A stretch of 55,561 bases of DNA from assembly GCA_001552775.1 (NCBI GenBank), contig KQ959277.1:79867-135427 (forward strand), in the 5' to 3' direction. The stretch is from Bacteroidales bacterium KA00251. Lineage in GTDB: Bacteria > Bacteroidota > Bacteroidia > Bacteroidales > Porphyromonadaceae. The position numbers and the translations under genes are program-made. Below the pieces are notes generated by a model. It saw only the letters and a program-made list of their open reading frames with translations. It was not told the DNA's origin and did no database searches. How positions within the stretch are numbered: position 1 is the stretch's first letter; each line of letters starts with the position of its first letter. Shown here one piece after another: positions 33,133 to 47,265 of the stretch.

Positions 33133-33307
33133 GAGACTGTTGCAAAAGTCAACGGTCTCACAATCTTGCTCGTAAGATTGTCTAGACTTTGCAGAAAGGA
33201 TGAAGCGCAAGGCGCAGAGGGTGAGGTCTGAAGGGAGCATACCTCCGTATTGAGACAAAGCCGAATCCCGAAAGCAACACAGCGATTCGCCTTTATGCAA
33301 CAGTCTC
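33133..33307 (-). mobile_element. MITE copy B (175 bp)
   Basis: The ends GAGACTGTTGCA and TGCAACAGTCTC are perfect 12-bp inverted repeats, and the interior is nearly identical to the copy at 33972. No transposase is encoded. On the minus strand the interior reads open as LLHKGESLCCFRDSALS. A clean target-site duplication is not visible. Confidence 0.85.
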
Positions 33308-33403
33308 TTATTAGGTCTTTTGAGTAGGGCACGGCTATGACTTCAGTCAAGTATAAAGAGCACTGGGGAGATTTTTTTTAGTGGCTTAGCAAGCGAAAAA
33401 GTA

Positions 33404-33971: not shown

Positions 33972-34142
33972 GACTGTTGCAAAAGTCAACAGTCTCAAGA
34001 TCTTGCGAGCAAGATTGTCTAGACTTTGCAGAAAGGATGAAGCGCAAGGCGCAGAGGGTGAGGTCTGAAGGGAGCATACCTCCGTATTGAGACAAAGCCG
34101 AATCCCGAAAGCAACACAGCGATTCGCCTTTATGCAACAGTC
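33972..34142 (-). mobile_element. MITE copy C (171 bp) with 9-bp target-site duplication
   Basis: GACTGTTGCA and TGCAACAGTC bound the element, and GCATCTTGA is present on both sides (33963-33971 and 34143-34151) as an exact 9-bp duplication. It sits inside the hsdR remnant. Element plus duplication is 180 bp, exactly 60 codons, and the minus-strand frame runs open through it into the hsdR fragment. Confidence 0.9.
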
Positions 34143-34179
34143 GCATCTTGAACATATAACGAGATTGGAGATATTTTCA

Positions 34180-37435: not shown

Positions 37436-37499
37436 GAGATTGTTGCATAAAGCCGAATCCCGAAAGCAACACAGCGATTCGCCTTTATGCAACAGTCTC
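37436..37499 (-). mobile_element. MITE copy D (64 bp, internally deleted)
   Basis: It keeps both ends (GAGATTGTTGCATAAAG and the last about 55 bp through TGCAACAGTCTC) but lacks the central part of the full copies. This looks like internal deletion of a 175-bp element. Confidence 0.8.
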
Positions 37500-37624
37500 T
37501 TAATAGGCCACTCGTTGCTATCAATCCCAGAAACCACGGAGAGCTTCCCCGCTTCTTGCTGGTTCTTTACCTCGGTGCGATCTTCTAAGACCAGCACGTA
37601 GTTATCATTGCTATTTGCTTCCAT
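37500..37624 (-). pseudogene. N-terminal gene fragment cut by MITE D
   Basis: The minus-strand frame starts MEANSNDNYVLVLEDRTEV at 37624 and stays gene-like for about 42 codons before entering the MITE, where it reads RLLHKGESLCCFRDSAL. The opening resembles the start of DUF3945-type proteins found on Bacteroidota conjugative elements, from memory only. It is probably the stump of an integrated-element gene. Confidence 0.45.
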
Positions 37625-37757
37625 AAATCACGCTGTTTGATTTGAATAATACCTTTCAGACAGCAAATATATATAGGAGCAACTCTCCGCTTTTCACCCG
37701 AGGATAAAGAAGGAAATAACGGGAAACCGATAGTAATTAGACACTTACAGAAAATAA

Positions 37758-37776
37758 ATTTCCAGCTCTTGGAAAT
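37758..37776. promoter_or_regulatory. Palindromic operator of the XRE regulator
   Basis: ATTTCCA-GCTCT-TGGAAAT is a perfect 7-5-7 inverted repeat 6 bp upstream of the -7 box TATATTTG. This is the expected place for autorepression by the adjacent XRE protein, as in controller (C) proteins of restriction-modification systems. Confidence 0.6.
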
Positions 37777-37782
37777 ATTTGC

Positions 37783-37790
37783 TATATTTG
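37783..37790 (+). promoter_or_regulatory. -7 promoter box of the restriction-modification operon
   Basis: TATATTTG matches TAnnTTTG, 20 bp before the XRE gene's ATG. Confidence 0.6.
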
Positions 37791-37810
37791 TACCCGAAAT
37801 AAAGAGAGTG

Positions 37811-38125
37811 ATGAGAGAGAAGAAACTACTAGAGCGTCTGTATAAGCTACGCACTGAACGACAAATACCCTCCCAAGAACTAGCTAGGATTCTTGGGGTG
37901 GAGCCACCGATGTACAGTCGTATGGAGCGAGGGTCTCGCAACATCAAGGTGGAGCATCTGAAGAAAATTGCAGAGTTCTATCATGTAGATTGCGATGAGT
38001 TGCACGCTCTTTGGGTCGCAGACAAGCTCAGTGAGTTTGCTCAAGGTCTGCCACAGGAAGTGTTTGAGCAAGCGATATCAATACTGAATCGTGAAAGGGA
38101 TAAAGATAATGGAGAAGGACAATAG
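37811..38125 (+). CDS. XRE-family helix-turn-helix regulator (C-protein-like)
   Basis: The 104-aa protein has an HTH_3 domain in residues about 6-60 (LYKLRTERQIPSQELARILG, then MYSRMERGSRNIKVEHLKKI). I start at ATG 37811; an open frame back to TTG 37769 would cover the operator and -7 box and is therefore rejected. It is the first gene of the locus and overlaps the methyltransferase stump by 17 bp. By position it should time expression of methylase and restriction genes. Confidence 0.87.
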   Translation: MREKKLLERLYKLRTERQIPSQELARILGVEPPMYSRMERGSRNIKVEHLKKIAEFYHVDCDELHALWVADKLSEFAQGLPQEVFEQAISILNRERDKDNGEGQ

Positions 38126-38234
38126 ACGGCAATTCAACTTTATAGACTTGTTCGCTGGTTGTGGTGGTTTTCTAACACATGGCACATTACACACTGCACG
38201 AGCTTGCATATCTGTCTCACGTTTTAAATCTTAG
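38109..38234 (+). pseudogene. N-terminal stump of a cytosine-C5 DNA methyltransferase
   Basis: The frame reads MEKDNRRQFNFIDLFAGCGG and then diverges to a stop after 41 codons. F-x-D-L-F-A-G-C-G-G is motif I, the SAM site of m5C methyltransferases, and sits at the right distance from the N-terminus. Motifs IV (PCQ), VI (ENV), VIII and X are missing. The start overlaps the XRE stop by 17 bp, so this was the original second gene. The intact methyltransferase gene begins only 6 bp after the stop, which suggests that most of a first methylase was deleted. Confidence 0.8.
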
Positions 38235-38239
38235 AGCGT

Positions 38240-39232
38240 ATGAATAAAATCAATGAGTTTCATTTATTTGCAGGAATCGGAGGAGGAATTTACGGAGGTC
38301 ATATCTTAGACCATTCTTGTTGCGGAGCAGTCGAGATTGATGACTATTGCAACGAAGTTTTAGTGCAAAGACAACGTGATGGCTGGATGGATTCATTTCC
38401 AATTTATGGTGATATAACGACTCTCAATGGAGGTAATTTCAAAGGAGCATTTGACATTCTCTGCGGAGGTTTCCCTTGCCAAGCATTTAGTCATGCAGCG
38501 CGAGGCAAAAACATTTCTGAGAAGAACCTTTGGCCTGAGATGCTTCGGTTCACAAAAGAGTCTGAAGCTCCAATCGTTTTTGGAGAAAATGTTACGCTTA
38601 AAGCTATCCGCACAGCATCTATGGATTTGCAATCCGCAGGTTATAGCGTTAAGTATTGCAAGCTTTCGTGTGGCAGCCTTGGTGCAGACCATAGACGTGA
38701 TCGGTACTGGCTACTTGGAGTTAAGAGTCCCAATGCCTTAAGTAAAGTAAACGAGAGCTTGGAGCGTCTTGGTAAAATGCATATGGACTGTTGGGTCAAA
38801 CCATTTGACGAGCTTGCAGATGACGCAATCCTCTCTAATCGTAGAGCGCAACTGAAAGCTATAGGCAATGCACAGGCTCCGTTGGTAGCTGCAACAGCTT
38901 TTAGGGTTTTGGCTTACAGGCACAAGAACCAAATAAACAACTCCCTAAAGGTAACGGAGGAGGAAATCAGTCGATTTTTCACTACTCAAACGACTTGGAT
39001 TAAGGAAACATATGGGGAGGATTTTGGATTCGTCCACACCCCTACCACTATGGCCAATTACTCTGCTCCATCAATGATGAAACATGCAGGATGCAGAAAT
39101 TTTGTTGAGGTATTCAATCGTCCTACGCCTGCCAATGCCGAATACTTAATGGGCATGCCTTACGGGGCCTCTTCCACAAACCCAATGAGCAAGAAGAATA
39201 TAGAGATATGGAAACAGAGCATAAAGCTATGA
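38240..39232 (+). CDS. Cytosine-C5 DNA methyltransferase
   Basis: The 330-aa protein has motif I LFAGIGGGIYGG (residues about 9-20), motif II AVEID, motif IV with the catalytic cysteine in GGFPCQAFS (near 76), motif VI FGENV (near 115) and motif VIII DHRRDRYWLLG (near 155). A short variable region is followed by motif X-like LKAIGNAQAPLVAATAF (near 215). Unusually, about 100 more residues follow, including HTPTTMANYSAPS and EYLMGMPYGASS, blocks that normally come before motif X in Dcm-like phage enzymes. It would protect the host target against the McrB-like/nuclease pair downstream. Its stop overlaps the next ATG (ATGA). Confidence 0.9.
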   Translation: MNKINEFHLFAGIGGGIYGGHILDHSCCGAVEIDDYCNEVLVQRQRDGWMDSFPIYGDITTLNGGNFKGAFDILCGGFPCQAFSHAARGKNISEKNLWPEMLRFTKESEAPIVFGENVTLKAIRTASMDLQSAGYSVKYCKLSCGSLGADHRRDRYWLLGVKSPNALSKVNESLERLGKMHMDCWVKPFDELADDAILSNRRAQLKAIGNAQAPLVAATAFRVLAYRHKNQINNSLKVTEEEISRFFTTQTTWIKETYGEDFGFVHTPTTMANYSAPSMMKHAGCRNFVEVFNRPTPANAEYLMGMPYGASSTNPMSKKNIEIWKQSIKL

Positions 39233-40764
39233 CACTAAAAGAGATTACTAGTATTTTAGAGCGGACTGGAGTATCAAAGGTCACAGTAGAGACAATACCT
39301 AGAACATACTCTACTACTAAACTTTCCTCCTTCCTTACAGTGCAAATAGGCAACAGGGCTGCATCCAGTTGGAAAAAGGCTCAATACATTGTTGCAGCCT
39401 ATGACGATAGCAATGCTTCTCAAGAAGAAATTTTAGATGGTTGGAAATCTATGACTATCTCTCATGGAGAGCAGTTTCTGATCTTAGAAGAAGAGCCCAA
39501 TATATGGTCTTGCTATAACTCAACAGGAGATAAAGTGTCCTTAGAGAAAGTATTAATTGGCAAATCTCTAAAAACTAATGCACCCACCCCGTACCGTCAA
39601 TACATTACTGCAATCAAGTCAAAGCCATTTTTGTTGCTTGCGGGCATCTCAGGTACGGGTAAAAGTCGCATTGTACGGGAGCTGGCTCGATCTTGCTGGG
39701 ATAAAGACTCCGAGGAGTACAAGGCGCAGAAGCCTAGAAACTTTGAGATGATACAGGTCAAGCCTAATTGGCACGACTCGTCCGAACTCTTCGGCTATGT
39801 GAGCAGAATAAATGGAGAGCGGTTTATCGTTGGTCCATTTCTGAAGTTTATGGTTAGGGCGATGCAAGAGCCCGATGTACCCTACTTCCTCTGCCTTGAC
39901 GAGATGAACTTAGCCCCTGTGGAGCAATACTTCGCAGAGTATCTAAGCGTCATAGAGAGTCGCAAGCTTAAAGATGATGGGACTATAGAGACTGATCCTA
40001 TAGTGGACTTTGAGTCCACAGATGCCTATCACAGTTTGATAACTCAGTTGTTCCCAAAAGAGGATGAGGAGGAAGATAGACGGCTGTTTCTTTCGAAGGA
40101 AGGAGGCAAGCGGCTGTCAATACCCCCGAACCTCATCGTCGTTGGCACGGTCAATATGGACGAGACCACTTTCTCCTTCTCTCGCAAGGTGCTAGATAGA
40201 GCGATGACGATAGAGATGAATGAGGTAGACCTGAGGGGTGGTCTCACTGATAGGTATGAGTTGATAGAGCGACAAAGCGTTGAGACCCTAGTTGGCAACG
40301 CTGTGGAGGGTGTGGATGTCTATGCTAGCCATCAGGCTGTCTGTGATATCTGCCTCACATACCTCCAGAAGGTCAATGAGGTACTAGAGGAAACGCCCTT
40401 TAAGGTGGCATATCGCACTAGAAATGAAGTACTCCTCTATGTGGTCAATAACTTGCCCTATAACAAGTCGGCAGATGGCACAGCACTGCCCCAAGAGTAT
40501 GTGATAGCTCGAGCACTAGACGAGATCACCAATATGAAGATACTCTCTCGCATAGAGGGCGATGAGAGCAAAGTGCGCAAGGATCGCTTGGATAGACTAG
40601 AAGAGACCATTAGGGAGGGGCTTGAATCTATTTCAGGTCGCCAGTATGGGGCCGAATCTATGGAGCGGGATGATAGTCAGGTAGAGAAGTCTATCTCTAT
40701 CGCCAAGCTAAAGGAGATGACGAAGAAGCTAACAGACTCGGGCTATACGAGCTACTGGAGCTAA
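39229..40764 (+). CDS. McrB-like AAA+ NTPase, restriction component
   Basis: Residues about 1-125 form an N-terminal domain I do not recognise, probably the DNA-specificity module. The AAA+ core has Walker A GISGTGKS (near residue 142), the McrB-type segment VKPNWHDSSELFGYV (near 185), Walker B CLDEMNLAPVEQYFAEYL (near 223) and sensor 1 GTVNMDETTFSFSRKVLDRAM (near 306). These features place it with McrB and LlaJI.R1. I choose ATG 39229, coupled to the methylase stop by ATGA, over the in-frame ATG 39208. It probably forms a GTP- or ATP-driven ring that moves on DNA and works with the nuclease 12 bp downstream. Confidence 0.88.
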   Translation: MTLKEITSILERTGVSKVTVETIPRTYSTTKLSSFLTVQIGNRAASSWKKAQYIVAAYDDSNASQEEILDGWKSMTISHGEQFLILEEEPNIWSCYNSTGDKVSLEKVLIGKSLKTNAPTPYRQYITAIKSKPFLLLAGISGTGKSRIVRELARSCWDKDSEEYKAQKPRNFEMIQVKPNWHDSSELFGYVSRINGERFIVGPFLKFMVRAMQEPDVPYFLCLDEMNLAPVEQYFAEYLSVIESRKLKDDGTIETDPIVDFESTDAYHSLITQLFPKEDEEEDRRLFLSKEGGKRLSIPPNLIVVGTVNMDETTFSFSRKVLDRAMTIEMNEVDLRGGLTDRYELIERQSVETLVGNAVEGVDVYASHQAVCDICLTYLQKVNEVLEETPFKVAYRTRNEVLLYVVNNLPYNKSADGTALPQEYVIARALDEITNMKILSRIEGDESKVRKDRLDRLEETIREGLESISGRQYGAESMERDDSQVEKSISIAKLKEMTKKLTDSGYTSYWS

Positions 40765-40776
40765 CCTATAGATCCT

Positions 40777-43035
40777 ATGGAGCTGCTGAAGATAGAGCAT
40801 GAAGACTTTACCCTAAGCATCGAGTGTACGAAGTACAGTGATGTCTGGGCAAAGGCTAAGCAGTATGTAGGGGAGCAAAATCTTACCTCTACATACTCCT
40901 GGACGGAGGGTGTAAAGTCGGTCAAAAGACTCCTGGACAATGGGGATGAAGTAGAGATAGCTCCTCAAGACAAGTCAGCTCTAGCTATATTCTTTGACCA
41001 CACGGACTATCCTATCTGGGTGGAGTTTGACGCTGGGGTGACAAATGCCCGATTTGCTTCAATACTTCAGTCAGACAACGAGCGTTTTAGCTACCACAAG
41101 AGCCATCGCATCTTGACAGGCTTTATCAACTTTGGCAATGATATAGGACGTGGTGAGATAGTACTCAAATATGATGTGGCGGGGAGAGAGCGTACGTTTG
41201 TCTTTGGCTTTGATGTCCTGAGTACTAAGCTCAACTATCATGAGCACTGGCGGAGTATCATCGCCGACATTGAGGCGGAGTATAGTATGCTATCGCTGGA
41301 CTACATGCGTAGGACATTTCACAGCTTCTCTCCAGACAGTGAGGGCGAGCGACCAGACCTCGTATGGTGGAGCATATTCCAGGGGCAACAGGAGCGATTC
41401 TTGACCGCCATCAGACATATCATAGAGCGACCTCGTCATCGCTTGCGTAGTGAGATGACCTATCAGCGACTAGACAAGATCAAGAGAGTCCCTAGTACCT
41501 TAGAAAACGAGATCGCAGAGCATAGGCTTGAGGAGGAACGACTCTACCGTGTAGCGGAGCATGTACACTCCAATGACACGCAAGAGAATAGATTCTTAAA
41601 GTTTGCACTTGCTGAAATTGCCAAGAAGTATGATGCTCTAAAGCGTAAGATCGAAACGCTTGAAAATAGCTCAGTCACGCTCCGTGAGGAGATGAGCCGT
41701 ACAAAGAGCCAGATGCAGTCCTTACAGCGACACCCTTTCTTTCGCAGTGTGGGACTATTTCAAGGCTTTAGCCAGGAGAGCTTAGTACTACAGAAGGCCA
41801 CAGGCTATACTGATGTCTACCGCACATGGACCCTCTTGCGGCGGGCATATTCGCTACATGAGGGCTTATTCCGCCTACAGTCTAAGGATATAGCGACTCT
41901 GTATGAGATATGGTGCTTCATAGAGGTAAGTCATATCGTAAAGGAGCAACTCGGTATATCTGATGAGGAGGTCGATCATCGAAATCGTATGGAGATGGGA
42001 GGTCTCTTCACCTGGGATCTAGGTAAAGGGGAGCAGTCGCGAATACTATTTAGGAAAGATGGGATTGAGCTAGCAGAGCTTATCTACAATCCGAAGCACA
42101 CCCAACGAGAAAACGAGACTACGAGTGTGGAAAAATTTGTTGTGAAGACCGTCTCCCAGAAGCCAGACATCGTCCTGCAATTAGTCAAGGATGATATCCA
42201 GACAGGTATGAAGATGACCTATCTCTTTGATGCTAAGTATCGCATAGACTCTAATAGATATGGTGTAGACTACCCGCCAGATGATGCGATCAATCAGATG
42301 CACCGCTACCGTGACGCAATCTACTATCAGCAAGGTCAAGGGGTGCCACTGAAGAAGGAGGTGGTGGGTGGCTACATCCTCTTCCCTGGGTCTGGAGAGC
42401 CACTAGATGTTCAGACGGCAACGTTCTACAAGAGTATCAAAGAGGTGAATATCGGAGCCTTCCCACTTCGTCCGAAAAATACAGAAAATAGGAAGTTACT
42501 CTCAGACTTCATCGGCTCACTGATAGCAAATGAAGGGCAGTCTCTGATAGCGGACAGTATCCCGCAGAAGGGGCTAAACTACATCATTGACTCCATAGGT
42601 TCTGATAGCGACATGGCCTTTGTGGGGTATGTCCGCCAACCTCAGTCAGACTCGTCAGAGTCTTATAAGTCGTACTATAGGAAGTTTGTTGAGAACGACT
42701 CTCCACAGTTTTACTACTCTGGTCGGAGCTTGAGTAAAGGCATTGATTTGCGTTCGGTTAGATACGTATTCCCCAGCCTTCCTGGCAACGGATATTATAG
42801 GGTGAAGCGCATCTACTCAGAGCGACGAGATGATTTATTTCTTGATCAAGAGGAACAAGAAGACAAGAGTATGCGTATTGTTTTTGAGTTAGGGGAGTTC
42901 ATTTCTCTTGGAGAGAAGAAACTCAAGTTTAGCTTTAGTGGTGAAAACAAATGTCTTCAAGTAAAACAAACAGGGGAGACAAAGCCTTTGAGACAAATCA
43001 AAGAAGAGTTTAAAAGAATTCAAACAGAAAAGTAA
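40777..43035 (+). CDS. DUF2357-type PD-(D/E)XK nuclease, McrC-like partner
   Basis: The 752-aa protein has an N-terminal beta-rich region (1-250) and a heptad-like coiled coil (about 283-325, KKYDALKRKIETLENSS). The nuclease core has QKPDIVLQL (near 461) and LFDAKYRID (near 484), giving the PD...D-x-K pattern, followed by MHRYRDAIYY as the usual helix. This layout fits DUF2357/DUF524 proteins that pair with McrB-like NTPases in place of classical McrC. It probably cuts DNA at sites located by the NTPase ring. The last about 110 residues are an extra domain of unknown role. Confidence 0.83.
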   Translation: MELLKIEHEDFTLSIECTKYSDVWAKAKQYVGEQNLTSTYSWTEGVKSVKRLLDNGDEVEIAPQDKSALAIFFDHTDYPIWVEFDAGVTNARFASILQSDNERFSYHKSHRILTGFINFGNDIGRGEIVLKYDVAGRERTFVFGFDVLSTKLNYHEHWRSIIADIEAEYSMLSLDYMRRTFHSFSPDSEGERPDLVWWSIFQGQQERFLTAIRHIIERPRHRLRSEMTYQRLDKIKRVPSTLENEIAEHRLEEERLYRVAEHVHSNDTQENRFLKFALAEIAKKYDALKRKIETLENSSVTLREEMSRTKSQMQSLQRHPFFRSVGLFQGFSQESLVLQKATGYTDVYRTWTLLRRAYSLHEGLFRLQSKDIATLYEIWCFIEVSHIVKEQLGISDEEVDHRNRMEMGGLFTWDLGKGEQSRILFRKDGIELAELIYNPKHTQRENETTSVEKFVVKTVSQKPDIVLQLVKDDIQTGMKMTYLFDAKYRIDSNRYGVDYPPDDAINQMHRYRDAIYYQQGQGVPLKKEVVGGYILFPGSGEPLDVQTATFYKSIKEVNIGAFPLRPKNTENRKLLSDFIGSLIANEGQSLIADSIPQKGLNYIIDSIGSDSDMAFVGYVRQPQSDSSESYKSYYRKFVENDSPQFYYSGRSLSKGIDLRSVRYVFPSLPGNGYYRVKRIYSERRDDLFLDQEEQEDKSMRIVFELGEFISLGEKKLKFSFSGENKCLQVKQTGETKPLRQIKEEFKRIQTEK

Positions 43036-43207
43036 ATAATGAAAATGAATTGAGCACAGTTAAAAGTAAGGGTATAGCTCAAAAAACACACAAATGCAAC
43101 ATCAATAAAAGCGGTGGGACTTCTTTAGTGAGTATCAATCAAAATCGTTGCATTTATAGTTGAATCTACCTAGTTTCACATCAGGGCGACAGCTTAAGAA
43201 AAATAAG

Positions 43208-43215
43208 TAGATTTG
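43208..43215 (+). promoter_or_regulatory. -7-like box before the GHKL-nuclease gene
   Basis: TAGATTTG matches TAnnTTTG, 28 bp before the ATG at 43244. With the 208-bp gap it suggests separate transcription from the McrB-like/DUF2357 pair. Confidence 0.4.
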
Positions 43216-43243
43216 CAGAGTGCTATCAGTAATAGTAGAGATA

Positions 43244-45451
43244 ATGACCAATAAAACAATATTCAGCGATGCAGATAAATTTTTAGAGTACAAAGACTTA
43301 CGATGGTCTGGAATTCTAAAGAGTGTACGGAAGTCGGCAAACAAATTACAGCCTTTGTTCGAGACCTTTACAAATAGCCTTGAGGCGATAAAGCTTCGCC
43401 AAAGAAAAGGGGATGTATTTGACCCCTATATCAATGTAGTACTGAATTTTAGTCCAAATTTAATTGGTGGTTCCAGTGAACTAATTGATATTTCAGTAGA
43501 AGACAATGGAATAGGCTTTGATGATGACAATTTCAGAAGGATGGTCATATACAAAGATGATACAAAAGGCTTCAACAATCGTGGGTCTGGTCGTATCCAA
43601 ATGATTCACTTCTTCCAATATGTTACTATTGATAGTACGTATCAAGAAAAAAGCATCGTAAAGAAGAGAAAGTTTACACTCTCAAAAGGAACTCAGTTTA
43701 TAGACAAGAATACAATATTGTATAATACGGAAGAGCCTCATCCTGTTAATAATGGCGAAATTAAAACTGTGGTAAAAATGCAAGCACCACTAGACAATAA
43801 AGATGCAGAAGATTATGCCAAGTATGATTGTACTAATCTGAAGGACGAGCTAATCAACCATTACCTGCTTCACTTCTGTGCAATTAAAGACAATCTTCCC
43901 TCCATTAATATAATTTGGCTAGTCAATAATTTGGAGAGTTCAAGGGAACAAATCACATTCGATGATATCCCAGAACCAACACACAAAGACGTAGTTATAT
44001 CTGTTCCTATGTGTAAGATCTCTGAGGACATGAAGCGTGTAGATTATGTGGCTGATAATGTGGTTAGTATAAGCATTTTTCCTTATAAGATCAGCTCTGA
44101 TATTTTGCAAACAAGCGAAATAAAAATTACCAGTAAAAATGAAGTTTCAGAAACAACCAAAATAAAACTTACATGTATTGACCCCAGTGTAGCACTTGAC
44201 AACTATCGATACTTGTTTTTACTGAAAAGCGATTATTTTGACAGGCTTGATGGCGATGAGCGAGGCAATATAGAAATTATAGACAAAACGGAATTCAGAA
44301 AAAGAGCAAAATCTCAAGGTTTTATTGAAGAGCAAATACTTCTGAATGATATTCAAGAGGTCGTTAATGATAAGGCCAGTGAAATCTATGAAGAAATTGC
44401 AATTCAGAATCAGATGTTTTGTGACAGAATAGAGCAACTAAAAAAGGATTATCTTCTTTCAGAAGAAGCTTTATCGGACATATCTTTGAGTGATAGTATA
44501 GAAGAAGTATTCAAAAAAGCATATACATATGATGCCAAAGTAATGGCACAAGAGAATGCAAAATACGAAGGTGAAGTCCAAATTTTGAACAGCTTAGACC
44601 CTTCTTCTGATGATTATCAAGGTAAGCTTTCAACAATCGTTGATCAACTAGTAGAATCAATTCCCATTCAAAATCGTGTTACCCTCTCTAAATACGTTGT
44701 ACGGAGAAAAATGGTTATTGAGTTGATGGATAAAATTTTGAATCGAATGTTGCATTGCCAAGAGGAGTCAAAGAGGAATACTGATGAAAGGCTTCTGCAC
44801 AATCTAATATTCAAGCAACATAGTAACAATCCTCTTACAAGTGATTTGTGGATGATCAATGAGGAATATATGTATTTCAAGGGAACTTCGGAAAGCGTGC
44901 TTTTTAAGGTTGAAATAGATGGCAATCGTATTTTTAGAGATGAGTTTGAAGATGAGGAAAAGCGTTATTTCAATTCTCTTGGAGAAAATCGTAGACTTAT
45001 GCGAGCAGATGTACTTCTTTTTCCCTCTGAAAGCAAATGCGTAATTATTGAGTTCAAAAACCCAAGTGTGAATCTAGCAGATTGTCTAACGCAAATATCA
45101 ACGTATGCGTATTTTCTCAGAAACTTTACAAAACCAGAATATAAGTTCCTTACCTTCTATGGTTATCTCATTGGTGAGAGTTTAGAGAAAAGAGATGTTA
45201 GGGCAGCAGATGGAGATTTTAAGACAGCTCCACATCTCGACTTCCTGTTTCGACCGATGAAAACAGTTCGCGATGACAGTGGATCGAATCAAGATGGATC
45301 TCTCTATACCGAAGTGATTCAATTCTCAGTACTTAAAGAGCGTGCCAAGCTTAGGAATAAAGCTTTTATTGACTGCTTAATGCCTAAAGGAACAACAAAT
45401 GTTGATGAAGAAGACTCCGTCCAGCTTCATCAACATTTAATTCCATTATAA
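43244..45451 (+). CDS. GHKL (MORC/Hsp90-like) ATPase fused to a PD-(D/E)XK nuclease
   Basis: Starting at ATG 43244 (MTNKTIFSD) the protein has 735 aa; an in-frame GTG 8 codons upstream is less likely. The N-terminal GHKL fold shows the N-box ETFTNSLEAI (near residue 42), G1 VEDNGIGFDD (near 87) and the glycine-rich lid RGSGRIQMIHFF (near 113). The middle is helical and charged. The C-terminal domain (about 570-660) has RADVLLFPSESKCVIIEFKNP and QISTYAYFL, which gives the D...ExK...Q order of PD-(D/E)XK nucleases. MORC/MutL-like GHKL ATPases are known in prokaryotic restriction-modification neighbourhoods. Here it probably acts as a clamp-loaded nuclease or an extra effector. Confidence 0.85.
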   Translation: MTNKTIFSDADKFLEYKDLRWSGILKSVRKSANKLQPLFETFTNSLEAIKLRQRKGDVFDPYINVVLNFSPNLIGGSSELIDISVEDNGIGFDDDNFRRMVIYKDDTKGFNNRGSGRIQMIHFFQYVTIDSTYQEKSIVKKRKFTLSKGTQFIDKNTILYNTEEPHPVNNGEIKTVVKMQAPLDNKDAEDYAKYDCTNLKDELINHYLLHFCAIKDNLPSINIIWLVNNLESSREQITFDDIPEPTHKDVVISVPMCKISEDMKRVDYVADNVVSISIFPYKISSDILQTSEIKITSKNEVSETTKIKLTCIDPSVALDNYRYLFLLKSDYFDRLDGDERGNIEIIDKTEFRKRAKSQGFIEEQILLNDIQEVVNDKASEIYEEIAIQNQMFCDRIEQLKKDYLLSEEALSDISLSDSIEEVFKKAYTYDAKVMAQENAKYEGEVQILNSLDPSSDDYQGKLSTIVDQLVESIPIQNRVTLSKYVVRRKMVIELMDKILNRMLHCQEESKRNTDERLLHNLIFKQHSNNPLTSDLWMINEEYMYFKGTSESVLFKVEIDGNRIFRDEFEDEEKRYFNSLGENRRLMRADVLLFPSESKCVIIEFKNPSVNLADCLTQISTYAYFLRNFTKPEYKFLTFYGYLIGESLEKRDVRAADGDFKTAPHLDFLFRPMKTVRDDSGSNQDGSLYTEVIQFSVLKERAKLRNKAFIDCLMPKGTTNVDEEDSVQLHQHLIPL

Positions 45452-45477: not shown

Positions 45478-45831
45478 TTATTTAATTAGATGACAAAGAG
45501 CACAGTCAGCTTTGATACGGGCAGTCTCGCTCTCGACGAGGGAGAGGACCTCTCGTTTCACACGTTTATAATTGGCTTCAATAGTTTCACGCAGACTGTC
45601 GGAGCCATTTTCGTTTGTAAAGTCCGCTATGATGGGGATAGGCTGGTATGCTTTCGTTTCAGCCGAGACCTTGGCAGCATCCACAACTATCTCAGCGTGG
45701 AAGAGACTGTTGCACGAAGGCGAACTGCTGTGTTGCTTTCGGGATTCGGGTTTGGTCACGTACGGAGATATGCTCCCTTCACCCTCATCCTCATCGTCTT
45801 GCATTTCATCCTTCGTGAAAAGTCTCGGCAC
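45478..45831 (-). CDS. Hypothetical chimeric ORF, MITE-encoded N-terminus
   Basis: Residues 1-42 come from MITE copy E (MPRLFTKDEMQ...KPESRKQHS). The rest, starting NSLFHAEIVVDAAKVSAET and including IIADFTNENGSDSLRETIE, is outside the MITE and nearly identical to the ORF at 55174-55530. I do not recognise the flank. Conservation of the frame between two copies argues that the C-terminal part was once coding, probably the tail of a larger protein. Whether this form is expressed is unknown. Confidence 0.4.
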   Translation of the reverse strand: MPRLFTKDEMQDDEDEGEGSISPYVTKPESRKQHSSSPSCNSLFHAEIVVDAAKVSAETKAYQPIPIIADFTNENGSDSLRETIEANYKRVKREVLSLVESETARIKADCALCHLIK

Positions 45832-45874: not shown

Positions 45875-46005
45875 AGGAAGATTTTCTGATCAATGCGCTC
45901 ATTGAAATTGTCTGAGACAGCTCCAACGAACATACCTTGAGTGGGGTTGCGTTTCTATTGTTGTGCTATTCTGTTCGTGTCGTTTGCTTTGCTCATTACA
46001 TTCGA

Positions 46006-47265
46006 TTAAAAGCTATATTTTGCCTTCGCCCATACTTCTGAATTGTTTTTGTACGTGCTGAAGATACCTTCATCGCCTCCAAACCAATCATACCCGAGAG
46101 AGAGCTGAATGAAGTCATTCAGAGAGTAGGTGGCAGTAAACCGACTAAACCAACCTTTATGCTTGAGGTCGAAATAGGTGAAGTTGGAGAGTTGTAGGGT
46201 GTTATCCAACAGCTTTTTCGACACATTGAGCGTAAGGAGTAAATTGTGACGGGGCTGTGCAATCTGGTCTTCGTACTTTAGGATGCTTTCAGAGGAAAAC
46301 TGTGCCATCACCACCCAATCTTTGGGGGCATACCAATCGATACCCACGAGATAATTCACAGTGTTGAATCCTTTTTGTTTCTGATCAGACGCATCAGGTC
46401 TATAGCTGAAATGCTTCCCCACATTGAAGGCTGCTTCTCCTCGTAATACCAGTTGCCCTAGAGGTTTGGATATGTCTCCTCCGAAAAATCCCATTCGGTA
46501 GTATTGCGGAGAAACGACAATGTGGGTATCTGTAGGGCGATACGTAAACACGGGCATCTTGTTCCACGTATGCAATGCGGAGAGCGAAAAGTCCACTCCA
46601 GGCAAGGTAAAAGAGAGCTTTCCGCCATACTCGATATTGGCAAAATGAAAACTGGGGTGGCTCCCGTTTTCTTCCCAGGCAATAGGCTGTGGGCTATCTT
46701 TGGGCAAAATGCACCATGGATTTATTGCATCGGTAGGTAGTTTATACCCTTCAAAGGTTGGCACGGCAAGCAGTTCCAGTTTCATTTTGTCGTTAAAGAC
46801 GAAAAAGCGTAGGGCATTGACTGGCATCCGAATGTCATCATAGTCTTGTGCCAAGAACTCTGTCATATCCATAGGAGAGACCAAGTCGGTAATACGCACA
46901 CCGTCTGCCACCCCCCAAATGACCAATTGTCGCCCAAGGCGAAAGCCCCAATGGTCATCTCTATGGTCAAGATACGCTTCCCGCAGTTCAACACCTGTAC
47001 GCTCTTTTAATAATGCATTGTAAGTTGCGTTGAATGAGACAAAGAGCGAACAGCCTTCAAAACTTTTACCTATCTCTCCTCTTATTCTCGTGCGCGAAGC
47101 CATAAAGTTGTTCGGTTTTTCGGAGCGGACGGCATGATAGGTATCCACAAATCCTTTGACTTGCCATGATGAAGCTACCTCTTCTTGGCCCCATGCGATA
47201 TGCAGGGGCAAGAAGAGAATAAACAGCAACAAGAATTTTGCTGAATGCTTAGTTGTATCTGTCAT
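46006..47265 (-). CDS. Outer-membrane beta-barrel protein of the export cluster
   Basis: The 419-aa protein has a signal peptide (hydrophobic residues 11-25, cleavage near AWGQ). It then shows alternating beta-strand patterns and a C-terminal aromatic (WAKAKYSF), as in outer-membrane barrels. Motifs such as RLGRQLVIWGVADGVRITDLVSP resemble DUF1302-like porins that accompany MMPL transporters in other bacteria. It is the last gene of the run and its start overlaps the LolA-like stop (TAATG). It probably provides the outer-membrane step of substrate transfer. The substrate is unknown. Confidence 0.75.
   Translation of the reverse strand: MTDTTKHSAKFLLLFILFLPLHIAWGQEEVASSWQVKGFVDTYHAVRSEKPNNFMASRTRIRGEIGKSFEGCSLFVSFNATYNALLKERTGVELREAYLDHRDDHWGFRLGRQLVIWGVADGVRITDLVSPMDMTEFLAQDYDDIRMPVNALRFFVFNDKMKLELLAVPTFEGYKLPTDAINPWCILPKDSPQPIAWEENGSHPSFHFANIEYGGKLSFTLPGVDFSLSALHTWNKMPVFTYRPTDTHIVVSPQYYRMGFFGGDISKPLGQLVLRGEAAFNVGKHFSYRPDASDQKQKGFNTVNYLVGIDWYAPKDWVVMAQFSSESILKYEDQIAQPRHNLLLTLNVSKKLLDNTLQLSNFTYFDLKHKGWFSRFTATYSLNDFIQLSLGYDWFGGDEGIFSTYKNNSEVWAKAKYSF

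Follow-up and report, generated by a model that had tools for sequence, protein, structure and literature searches.

The closest described counterparts of the locus considered here, an island in a stretch of 55,561 nucleotides (the window) from the Bacteroidales bacterium KA00251 (contig KQ959277.1, positions 79,867 to 135,427), are found among restriction-modification (R-M) systems with McrBC-like subunits and among GHKL ATPases fused to nucleases. A single operon encodes the 5-methylcytosine (m5C) methylase, McrB-like and McrC-like subunits of LlaJI from Lactococcus. LlaJI has two methylases, for an asymmetric site, and its specificity was assigned to the McrB-like subunit (PMC1459862). PcaI of Pectobacterium comprises one m5C methylase, a McrB-like AAA+ protein and a DUF2357 nuclease with N- and C-terminal extensions (PMC8989522). 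A census of McrBC systems (eLife 2024) links McrB proteins of the NxD type to methyltransferases and two-component genes; it states that no NxD McrB has been characterised so far and defers the methyltransferase-linked branch to a later paper (PMC11090510). The paraMORC3 family (Iyer 2008) is defined by GHKL and S5 domains followed by a C-terminal nuclease of the restriction endonuclease (RE) fold with the residues E-D-ExK. It has R-M-linked and stand-alone members and is prevalent in proteobacteria and Bacteroidetes (PMC2292703). VcSduA of Vibrio cholerae (Shedu type I-D) unites a GHKL ATPase and a PD-(D/E)XK nuclease in one protein and provides single-gene defence, which is abolished by the replacements E27A and K557A; its dimer was modelled with a clamp-like middle domain (PMC12137116).

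The island is composed of an R-M core (37758-43035) and a GHKL ATPase-nuclease gene (43244-45451). Read on the plus strand from 37758, it presents a palindrome, an XRE regulator gene, a methylase stump (M1), an intact m5C methylase gene (M2), a McrB-like gene, a DUF2357/PDDEXK_7 nuclease gene and the GHKL ATPase-nuclease gene (Table 1). These positions and kinds of genes, given in a preliminary description made from the sequence, are borne out by open reading frames (ORFs), Pfam and PADLOC. The island most probably comprises two defence modules, a McrBC-like R-M system and a paraMORC3 single-gene defence. The observed basis of this reading is the gene content, the domains, the invariant active-site residues, a recurrent and non-obligate linkage, and the co-inheritance of M2 and the McrB N-terminal domain in one comparison; methylation, restriction, repression, gating and any cooperation between the modules we infer from them. 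Each of the parts is of a known kind, and it is the combination and the make-up of M2 that are informative.

The GHKL ATPase-nuclease protein

No Pfam model matches the GHKL-nuclease protein at its cut-off. It was aligned with the products of 34 of 37 full-length related genes (L020, L028 and L033 were left out), giving 35 rows. Invariant in all 35 proteins are E39, N43, DxGxG (86-90), GxG (113-115), E514, D588 and E602-x-K604 (alignment numbering; one is to be added when counting from the Met at 43244). The AlphaFold2 model (pLDDT 82, pTM 0.63) matches the ATPase modules of SMCHD1, TRAP1, MutL/PMS2 and MORC2 in Foldseek, in partial alignments with TM-scores of ~0.2-0.5. No nuclease is found among the best 50 Foldseek matches of this model, the nuclease domain alone not having been searched. 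A weak match to HSDR_N is present in 26 of the 35 members, and the sequence search of the PDB returned either no match or a single one at E 0.56. The invariant GHKL and E-D-ExK residues fit the definition of paraMORC3, and the protein shares with this family the succession of GHKL, S5 and C-terminal RE-fold nuclease domains. The GHKL ATPase fused to a PD-(D/E)XK nuclease of the preliminary description is upheld by the invariant residues, and its MORC/MutL-like look is right as well.

The protein also resembles VcSduA in joining a GHKL ATPase with a PD-(D/E)XK nuclease. A homologue from V. fluvialis aligns with the GHKL set over its full length, and its E27 and K556 fall at the aligned catalytic places. 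Unlike Shedu, the 35 members lack SduA_C/DUF4263, which is not among the seven families they match at E<=0.01; none of the five PADLOC families matched by GHKL-nuclease members is a Shedu family. An assignment to Shedu by domain was therefore rejected.

The GC content of the gene is 35.5%. In 10 of 10 loci (the window and nine chosen from the 45 described below) paraMORC3 is lower in GC than any of its listed neighbours, which reach 55%.

Linkage of the GHKL-nuclease gene to R-M genes

The genome scan yielded 45 related GHKL-nuclease loci in 43 assemblies, as L023 and L028 belong to one assembly and L022 and L058 to another. R-M-type genes were called within 7 kb by homology to chosen representatives at E<=1e-8; some contigs end near the gene, and misses are possible. 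Such a gene was found in 22 loci (type I, type III, ISP, McrBC-like and others, including GmrSD, TOTE, an ISP fragment and two opposite-strand Eco57I-like genes), and none was detected in the other 23. HsdM and HsdS stand just 5' of paraMORC3 in seven loci, with GmrSD intervening in one, and HsdR follows 3' in four of these seven. In two loci of the 45, paraMORC3 is placed between Mod and Res; the genes often abut.

McrB-like genes are rare in this set: 42 of the 45 loci, some of them on short contigs, have none within 7 kb, and the remaining three are L018, L051 and L057. In L051 and L057 the GHKL-nuclease gene is joined to McrB-like and DUF2357 genes and placed upstream of the core, and in the window it is placed downstream. 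In L018 it is joined to m5C methylase, McrB-like and RE_LlaJI (PF09563) genes, the core being of the NxxD type and of a different family. No GHKL-nuclease gene was seen in the six other DUF2357 loci of the order within the stretches fetched, of which those of L072 and L075 end near the core. An obligate composite system was rejected on these counts, and the single system with two effectors put forward in the preliminary description is not borne out. The gene-order comparison proposed there gave a divided answer: the GHKL-nuclease gene mostly occurs without the McrB-like pair, but the pair is not always without the GHKL-nuclease gene, as L051, L057 and L018 demonstrate.

On a tree of the 35 GHKL rows, made by a quick method that left 12 of its 32 inner branches open, the DUF2357-linked label changes at least twice, most simply as two gains, and the type I label changes at least four times on well-supported branches. 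Clustering of the type I label does not exceed that of shuffled labels (500 of 500 shuffles as low), and clustering of the DUF2357 label is weak (41 of 500 as low). The varied R-M neighbours together with the repeated label changes point to a module joining R-M operons of different kinds. The linkage is real, recurrent and non-obligate. The available account of the paraMORC3 family does not name a linkage to McrBC-like R-M cores (PMC2292703), and the words GHKL and MORC are absent from the main text of the McrBC census (PMC11090510). No description of a paraMORC3 gene joined to such a core was found in the literature, subscription works being mostly outside the scope of this search, so that novelty is unproven.

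Fourteen plasmid records have a GHKL-nuclease match, and the surroundings were viewed for seven. L007 carries a gene named restriction endonuclease 3' of the GHKL gene, and L010 an N-6 methylase gene ~6 kb from it; L005 is unannotated, and three other plasmids have no R-M gene by name. On the V. fluvialis plasmid L096 (866-6965) an HsdM-like methyltransferase, HsdS, a Shedu nuclease and a GHKL protein are encoded in one row.

Two further gene pairs recur next to paraMORC3. In four of the 45 loci (L019-L021 and L023) a DUF3307 gene and a gene without a Pfam match, which we take to be SatD-like, precede paraMORC3 or the HsdM-HsdS-paraMORC3 set. In three (L051, L057 and L022) a pair of AAA_15-like and DUF3226-like genes lies directly 5' of paraMORC3.

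The McrBC-like R-M core

The reading frames of M2, the McrB-like protein and the DUF2357 protein are open and their catalytic motifs are present. The McrB-like protein carries the motif TVNMDETT, i.e. NxD instead of NxxD, followed by E; NxD is found in the window McrB and in all seven other DUF2357-linked McrBs inspected. A PD...DAK motif is present in 7 of 7 aligned DUF2357 proteins. As for a comparison with CoCoNuT systems, the Pfam scan, used without a coiled-coil predictor, gave no coiled-coil family on the McrB-like protein, and the nuclease motif is intact. With its NxD-E motif and linkage to a methyltransferase the window resembles the NxD branch of the census; the receiver-like genes described for that branch are seen in the relatives L070 and L071, along with a kinase-like gene in L071.

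The label LlaJI-like, given to the core in the preliminary description, holds for the McrB-like AAA+ subunit and the general look of the locus. It is loose in other respects, because there is one intact methylase and because the nuclease matches PF09823 and PF04411 and not RE_LlaJI (PF09563). M2 is the only intact m5C methylase at the locus, M1 being a stump of 41 codons, and the single other PF00145 match in the genome lies on contig C26; two intact methylases were accordingly rejected. By description, the window holds the gene set of PcaI, namely a single m5C methylase with McrB-like and DUF2357 proteins. It differs in that the PcaI methylase is Dcm-like (CCNGG) and that an XRE palindrome, a stump or a GHKL gene is not mentioned in the available part of that paper (PMC8989522). 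The R-M core is probably PcaI-like rather than LlaJI-like, and PcaI is the nearest characterised system found.

Some of the six other DUF2357 loci of the order are of interest in their own right. L071 (8275-19191) encodes another GHKL protein (HATPase_c_3 and HEF_HK) along with a receiver-like gene, McrB, Fic and a Vsr-like gene, so labelled by sequence appearance; the DUF2357 core is thereby seen with a GHKL addition of a second kind. L074 has two m5C-methylase-like genes by sequence appearance, one with a weak match to M2. McrB-like genes are interrupted by an in-frame stop in L070 (2745-4340, TAG) and L072 (11214-12764, TAA), where an assembly error is possible.

M2 and the specificity of the McrB-like protein

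The M2 chain consists of a catalytic half (aa ~1-228) followed by a half resembling a target recognition domain and motif IX (aa ~245-326). At E<=1e-25, a search of 295 genomes from the order gave no match to it beyond the window. Its best relative, with 57% identity, is in L087, a record deposited as an unverified phage sequence that nevertheless carries M2, McrB and DUF2357 genes. The viral contig collection contains merely two short matches to M2 and no relative of the DUF2357 and GHKL proteins.

The McrB-like gene overlaps M2 by 25 nt, and the overlap in L087 is similar (28 nt). The N-terminal ~133 aa of the McrB-like protein are a candidate sequence reader. Among the seven other McrBs compared, the best match to this domain is that of L087 (32% identity, E 7e-19); the next best, L074, covers 32 aa at E 0.001, and the others, including L057, L070 and L071, are non-significant. 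The AAA domain, by contrast, has 57-65% identity to L057, L070 and L071 and 42% to L087, whose AAA domain is about as distant from that of the window as those of L051, L073 and L074. The McrB N-terminal domain seems to have moved along with M2, because both match L087 while the AAA domain is nearer to L057, L070 and L071. They thus seem to be co-inherited, as judged from one pair of loci (the window and L087), which suggests a portable specificity unit. The assignment of specificity to the McrB-like subunit in LlaJI fits such a unit.

Some m5C methylases are known to consist of two polypeptides, one of which bears motif IX apart from the rest, e.g. M.EcoHK31I (PMC3404938, PMC3439449), in which the part with motifs I-VIII and X is distinct from that with motif IX (PMC3404938). 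M2 resembles it in having two such parts and differs in bearing both on one chain, the likeness being by description and not by sequence. The second gene of M.EcoHK31I is reported, in a paper of 1995, to lie in an alternative frame.

The C-terminal half of M2 (aa 245-326) is 48-52% identical to a peptide that the methylase gene of the Klebsiella, PS-1 and Shamal phages encodes in its +1 frame. The overlap was analysed in nine hand-chosen loci (eight phage, one plasmid: L088, L091-L095, L097, L103 and L104), six taken from M2-type match lists and three from the match list of the Klebsiella second-frame protein; L092 and L094 are nearly identical to each other. In all nine, most of the methylase gene is open in the +1 frame, over 228-247 codons in six and over 298/304, 213/286 and 281/292 codons in the remaining three, which is not so for the third frame (longest stretch 25-69 codons). 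The catalytic half and the half with the target recognition domain and motif IX are in these relatives encoded by two frames that overlap almost completely. Synonymous-codon shuffling, which covered L088 and L091-L095, reached the observed length in 13 of 20000 shuffles for L088 and in 88, 32, 5, 27 and 84 per 5000 for L091, L092, L093, L094 and L095, respectively. The chance of an open +1 frame is thus modest to small per gene. The stronger sign is that the second-frame peptide recurs as an in-frame domain in the window and in L087, where both parts of M2 stand in tandem in a single frame and the +1 frame is short (107 and 58 codons). With the second-frame proteins of L093 from Vibrio and L095 from Salmonella, the C-terminal half of M2 gives no match (E 0.076) and a brief one (30 aa, E 3e-4), respectively, as if these bore another recognition part. 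Of 50,697 phage records, 20 match the Klebsiella second-frame protein at E<=1e-3 and 746 match the whole of M2, so that overlapped pairs are a minority among the detectable phage relatives of M2.

It is possible, as a tentative proposal that we hold with less than even confidence, that M2 is the linearised form of an otherwise dual-coded phage methylase, its halves having been un-overlapped in the R-M lineage and paired with a matching McrB N-terminal domain. The pair would form a specificity cassette that passes from one NxD McrBC motor to another, and paraMORC3 would be one more effector open to exchange. The change between the overlapped and the tandem arrangement may have taken place in either direction.

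Proposed mechanism and alternatives

In the first module the XRE protein would repress its own promoter via the palindrome, M2 would methylate the host recognition site, and the N-terminal domain of the McrB-like protein would find the unmethylated site. The NxD AAA+ motor would move along DNA under stimulation by the DUF2357 protein, and the PD-(D/E)XK domain would make the cut, the second methylase (M1) having presumably decayed into a stump. In the second module the paraMORC3 GHKL ATPase would gate its own C-terminal nuclease, as in VcSduA, and act as a single-gene defence. In addition, it may make use of DNA ends, or of stalled complexes, that the neighbouring restriction enzyme produces.

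It is unlikely that the island is one composite system, in which the GHKL-nuclease would be a subunit of the restriction complex joining, for example, recognition and cut sites by DNA looping. Such a role would be in line with a gene close to and co-directional with the core, with the HsdM-HsdS and Mod-Res arrangements and their often abutting genes, with the looping model proposed for MORC-type proteins in 2008 (PMC2292703) and with the modelled clamp-like middle domain of VcSduA (PMC12137116). It is opposed by the presence of McrB-like genes in merely three of 45 loci, by the 23 loci without a detected R-M-type gene, by the lack of a GHKL gene in the six other sampled DUF2357 loci and by VcSduA, which works alone (PMC12137116). 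A decaying locus, in which the R-M core died after the loss of M1 and the GHKL-nuclease is the only defence gene still active, appears improbable. The stump itself, the two methylases of LlaJI for its asymmetric site (PMC1459862) and the in-frame McrB stops of L070 and L072, if they are not assembly errors, would agree with decay, whereas the open frames and catalytic motifs of the core argue against it, as do L087, where no M2-like ORF is present within 2.9 kb upstream, and PcaI, which has one methylase (PMC8989522).

Several points weigh against two separate modules, of which one is an R-M system. The GHKL-nuclease gene is co-directional with the nuclease gene at a gap of 208 nt, and a shared transcript is possible. 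Its nearest relative, in L018 (72-73% identical), likewise stands 3' of a McrBC-like R-M core. Low GC cannot serve as proof of a separate import of the gene and was rejected as such, the same pattern being found in all 10 loci compared. Among the six genomes in which the DUF2357 locus is unlinked, G420 carries a broken GHKL-nuclease gene on a separate contig, suggesting that the two can in principle share a cell without linkage. The loss of M1 possibly leaves the R-M system inactive, and PcaI was likened by description and VcSduA via the V. fluvialis homologue, neither by its own sequence.

A single paraMORC3 family is seen next to R-M genes of type I, type III and ISP type, next to McrBC-like ones and also alone, whereby its role, as an independent nuclease or as a helper of restriction, becomes directly testable. 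The locus offers an NxD McrBC system associated with R-M, in which the seat of sequence specificity (M2 and the McrB N-terminal domain) can be studied by a natural comparison, and M2 is a case for how a dual-coded gene pair may turn into one ordinary protein, or the reverse.

Regulatory elements and borders of the island

Table 1. Features of the island and its borders (positions in the window).
Feature	Position	Strand	Basis
Dispersed repeats left of locus	37449..37740	.	Repeat search of genome
Palindrome, 19 nt, candidate XRE operator	37758..37776	.	ATTTCCA-GCTCT-TGGAAAT; just 5' of TAnnTTTG box at 37783
XRE / C-protein-like regulator	37811..38125	+	HTH_3 E 2.5e-12; PADLOC Control_protein 2.7e-7
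m5C methylase stump (M1)	38109..38234	+	41 codons; motif I only, FIDLFAGCGG
M2, single-chain m5C methylase	38240..39232	+	PF00145 8.6e-25
McrB-like AAA+ protein	39208..40764	+	AAA_5 9.2e-6; PADLOC PDC-M26A 2.9e-40; NxD motif
McrC-like DUF2357 + PDDEXK_7 nuclease	40777..43035	+	DUF2357 2.1e-46, PDDEXK_7 6.4e-32 (PF09823, PF04411)
TAnnTTTG box, possible own promoter of GHKL-nuclease gene	43208..43215	+	Sequence motif
paraMORC3-type GHKL ATPase, C-terminal PD-(D/E)XK nuclease (predicted)	43244..45451	+	Conserved residues, AlphaFold2 model, Foldseek
Dispersed repeats right of locus	45505..45781	.	Repeat and synteny comparison

Perfect palindromes with 6-bp arms and a spacer of 3-10 occur ~0.6 times per 190 nt across the window, so that the position of the candidate operator tells more than the palindrome itself. 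Together with the XRE protein, for which an alternative start is possible at 37769, it makes a C-protein timing of the R-M operon plausible. The methylase stump overlaps the 3' end of the XRE gene. The GHKL-nuclease gene may start at GTG 43220 or, more likely, at ATG 43244.

The island genes were not found by blastn (E<=1e-10, pieces of at least 60 nt) in five stretches of four sister genomes, where the sole matches of the island are dispersed repeats. To the right of the island, synteny with these five places is back at ~45876-46006, with 96.5-97.9% identity. Of 38 genomes in the family, only that of the window holds DUF2357 at E<=1e-10, and two hold the GHKL gene, the other one by a weak match over aa 30-179. 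The absence from the sister stretches and the rarity in the family make acquisition of the island by horizontal transfer likely.

The KA00251 genome (34 contigs, 1.86 Mb) gave 43 matches, including the query itself, to 37440-37740, mostly to a ~50-nt part. Copies of this dispersed repeat lie in the window at 37449-37501, 33257-33315, 34094-34152 and 45701-45753, and several of its copies adjoin the island.

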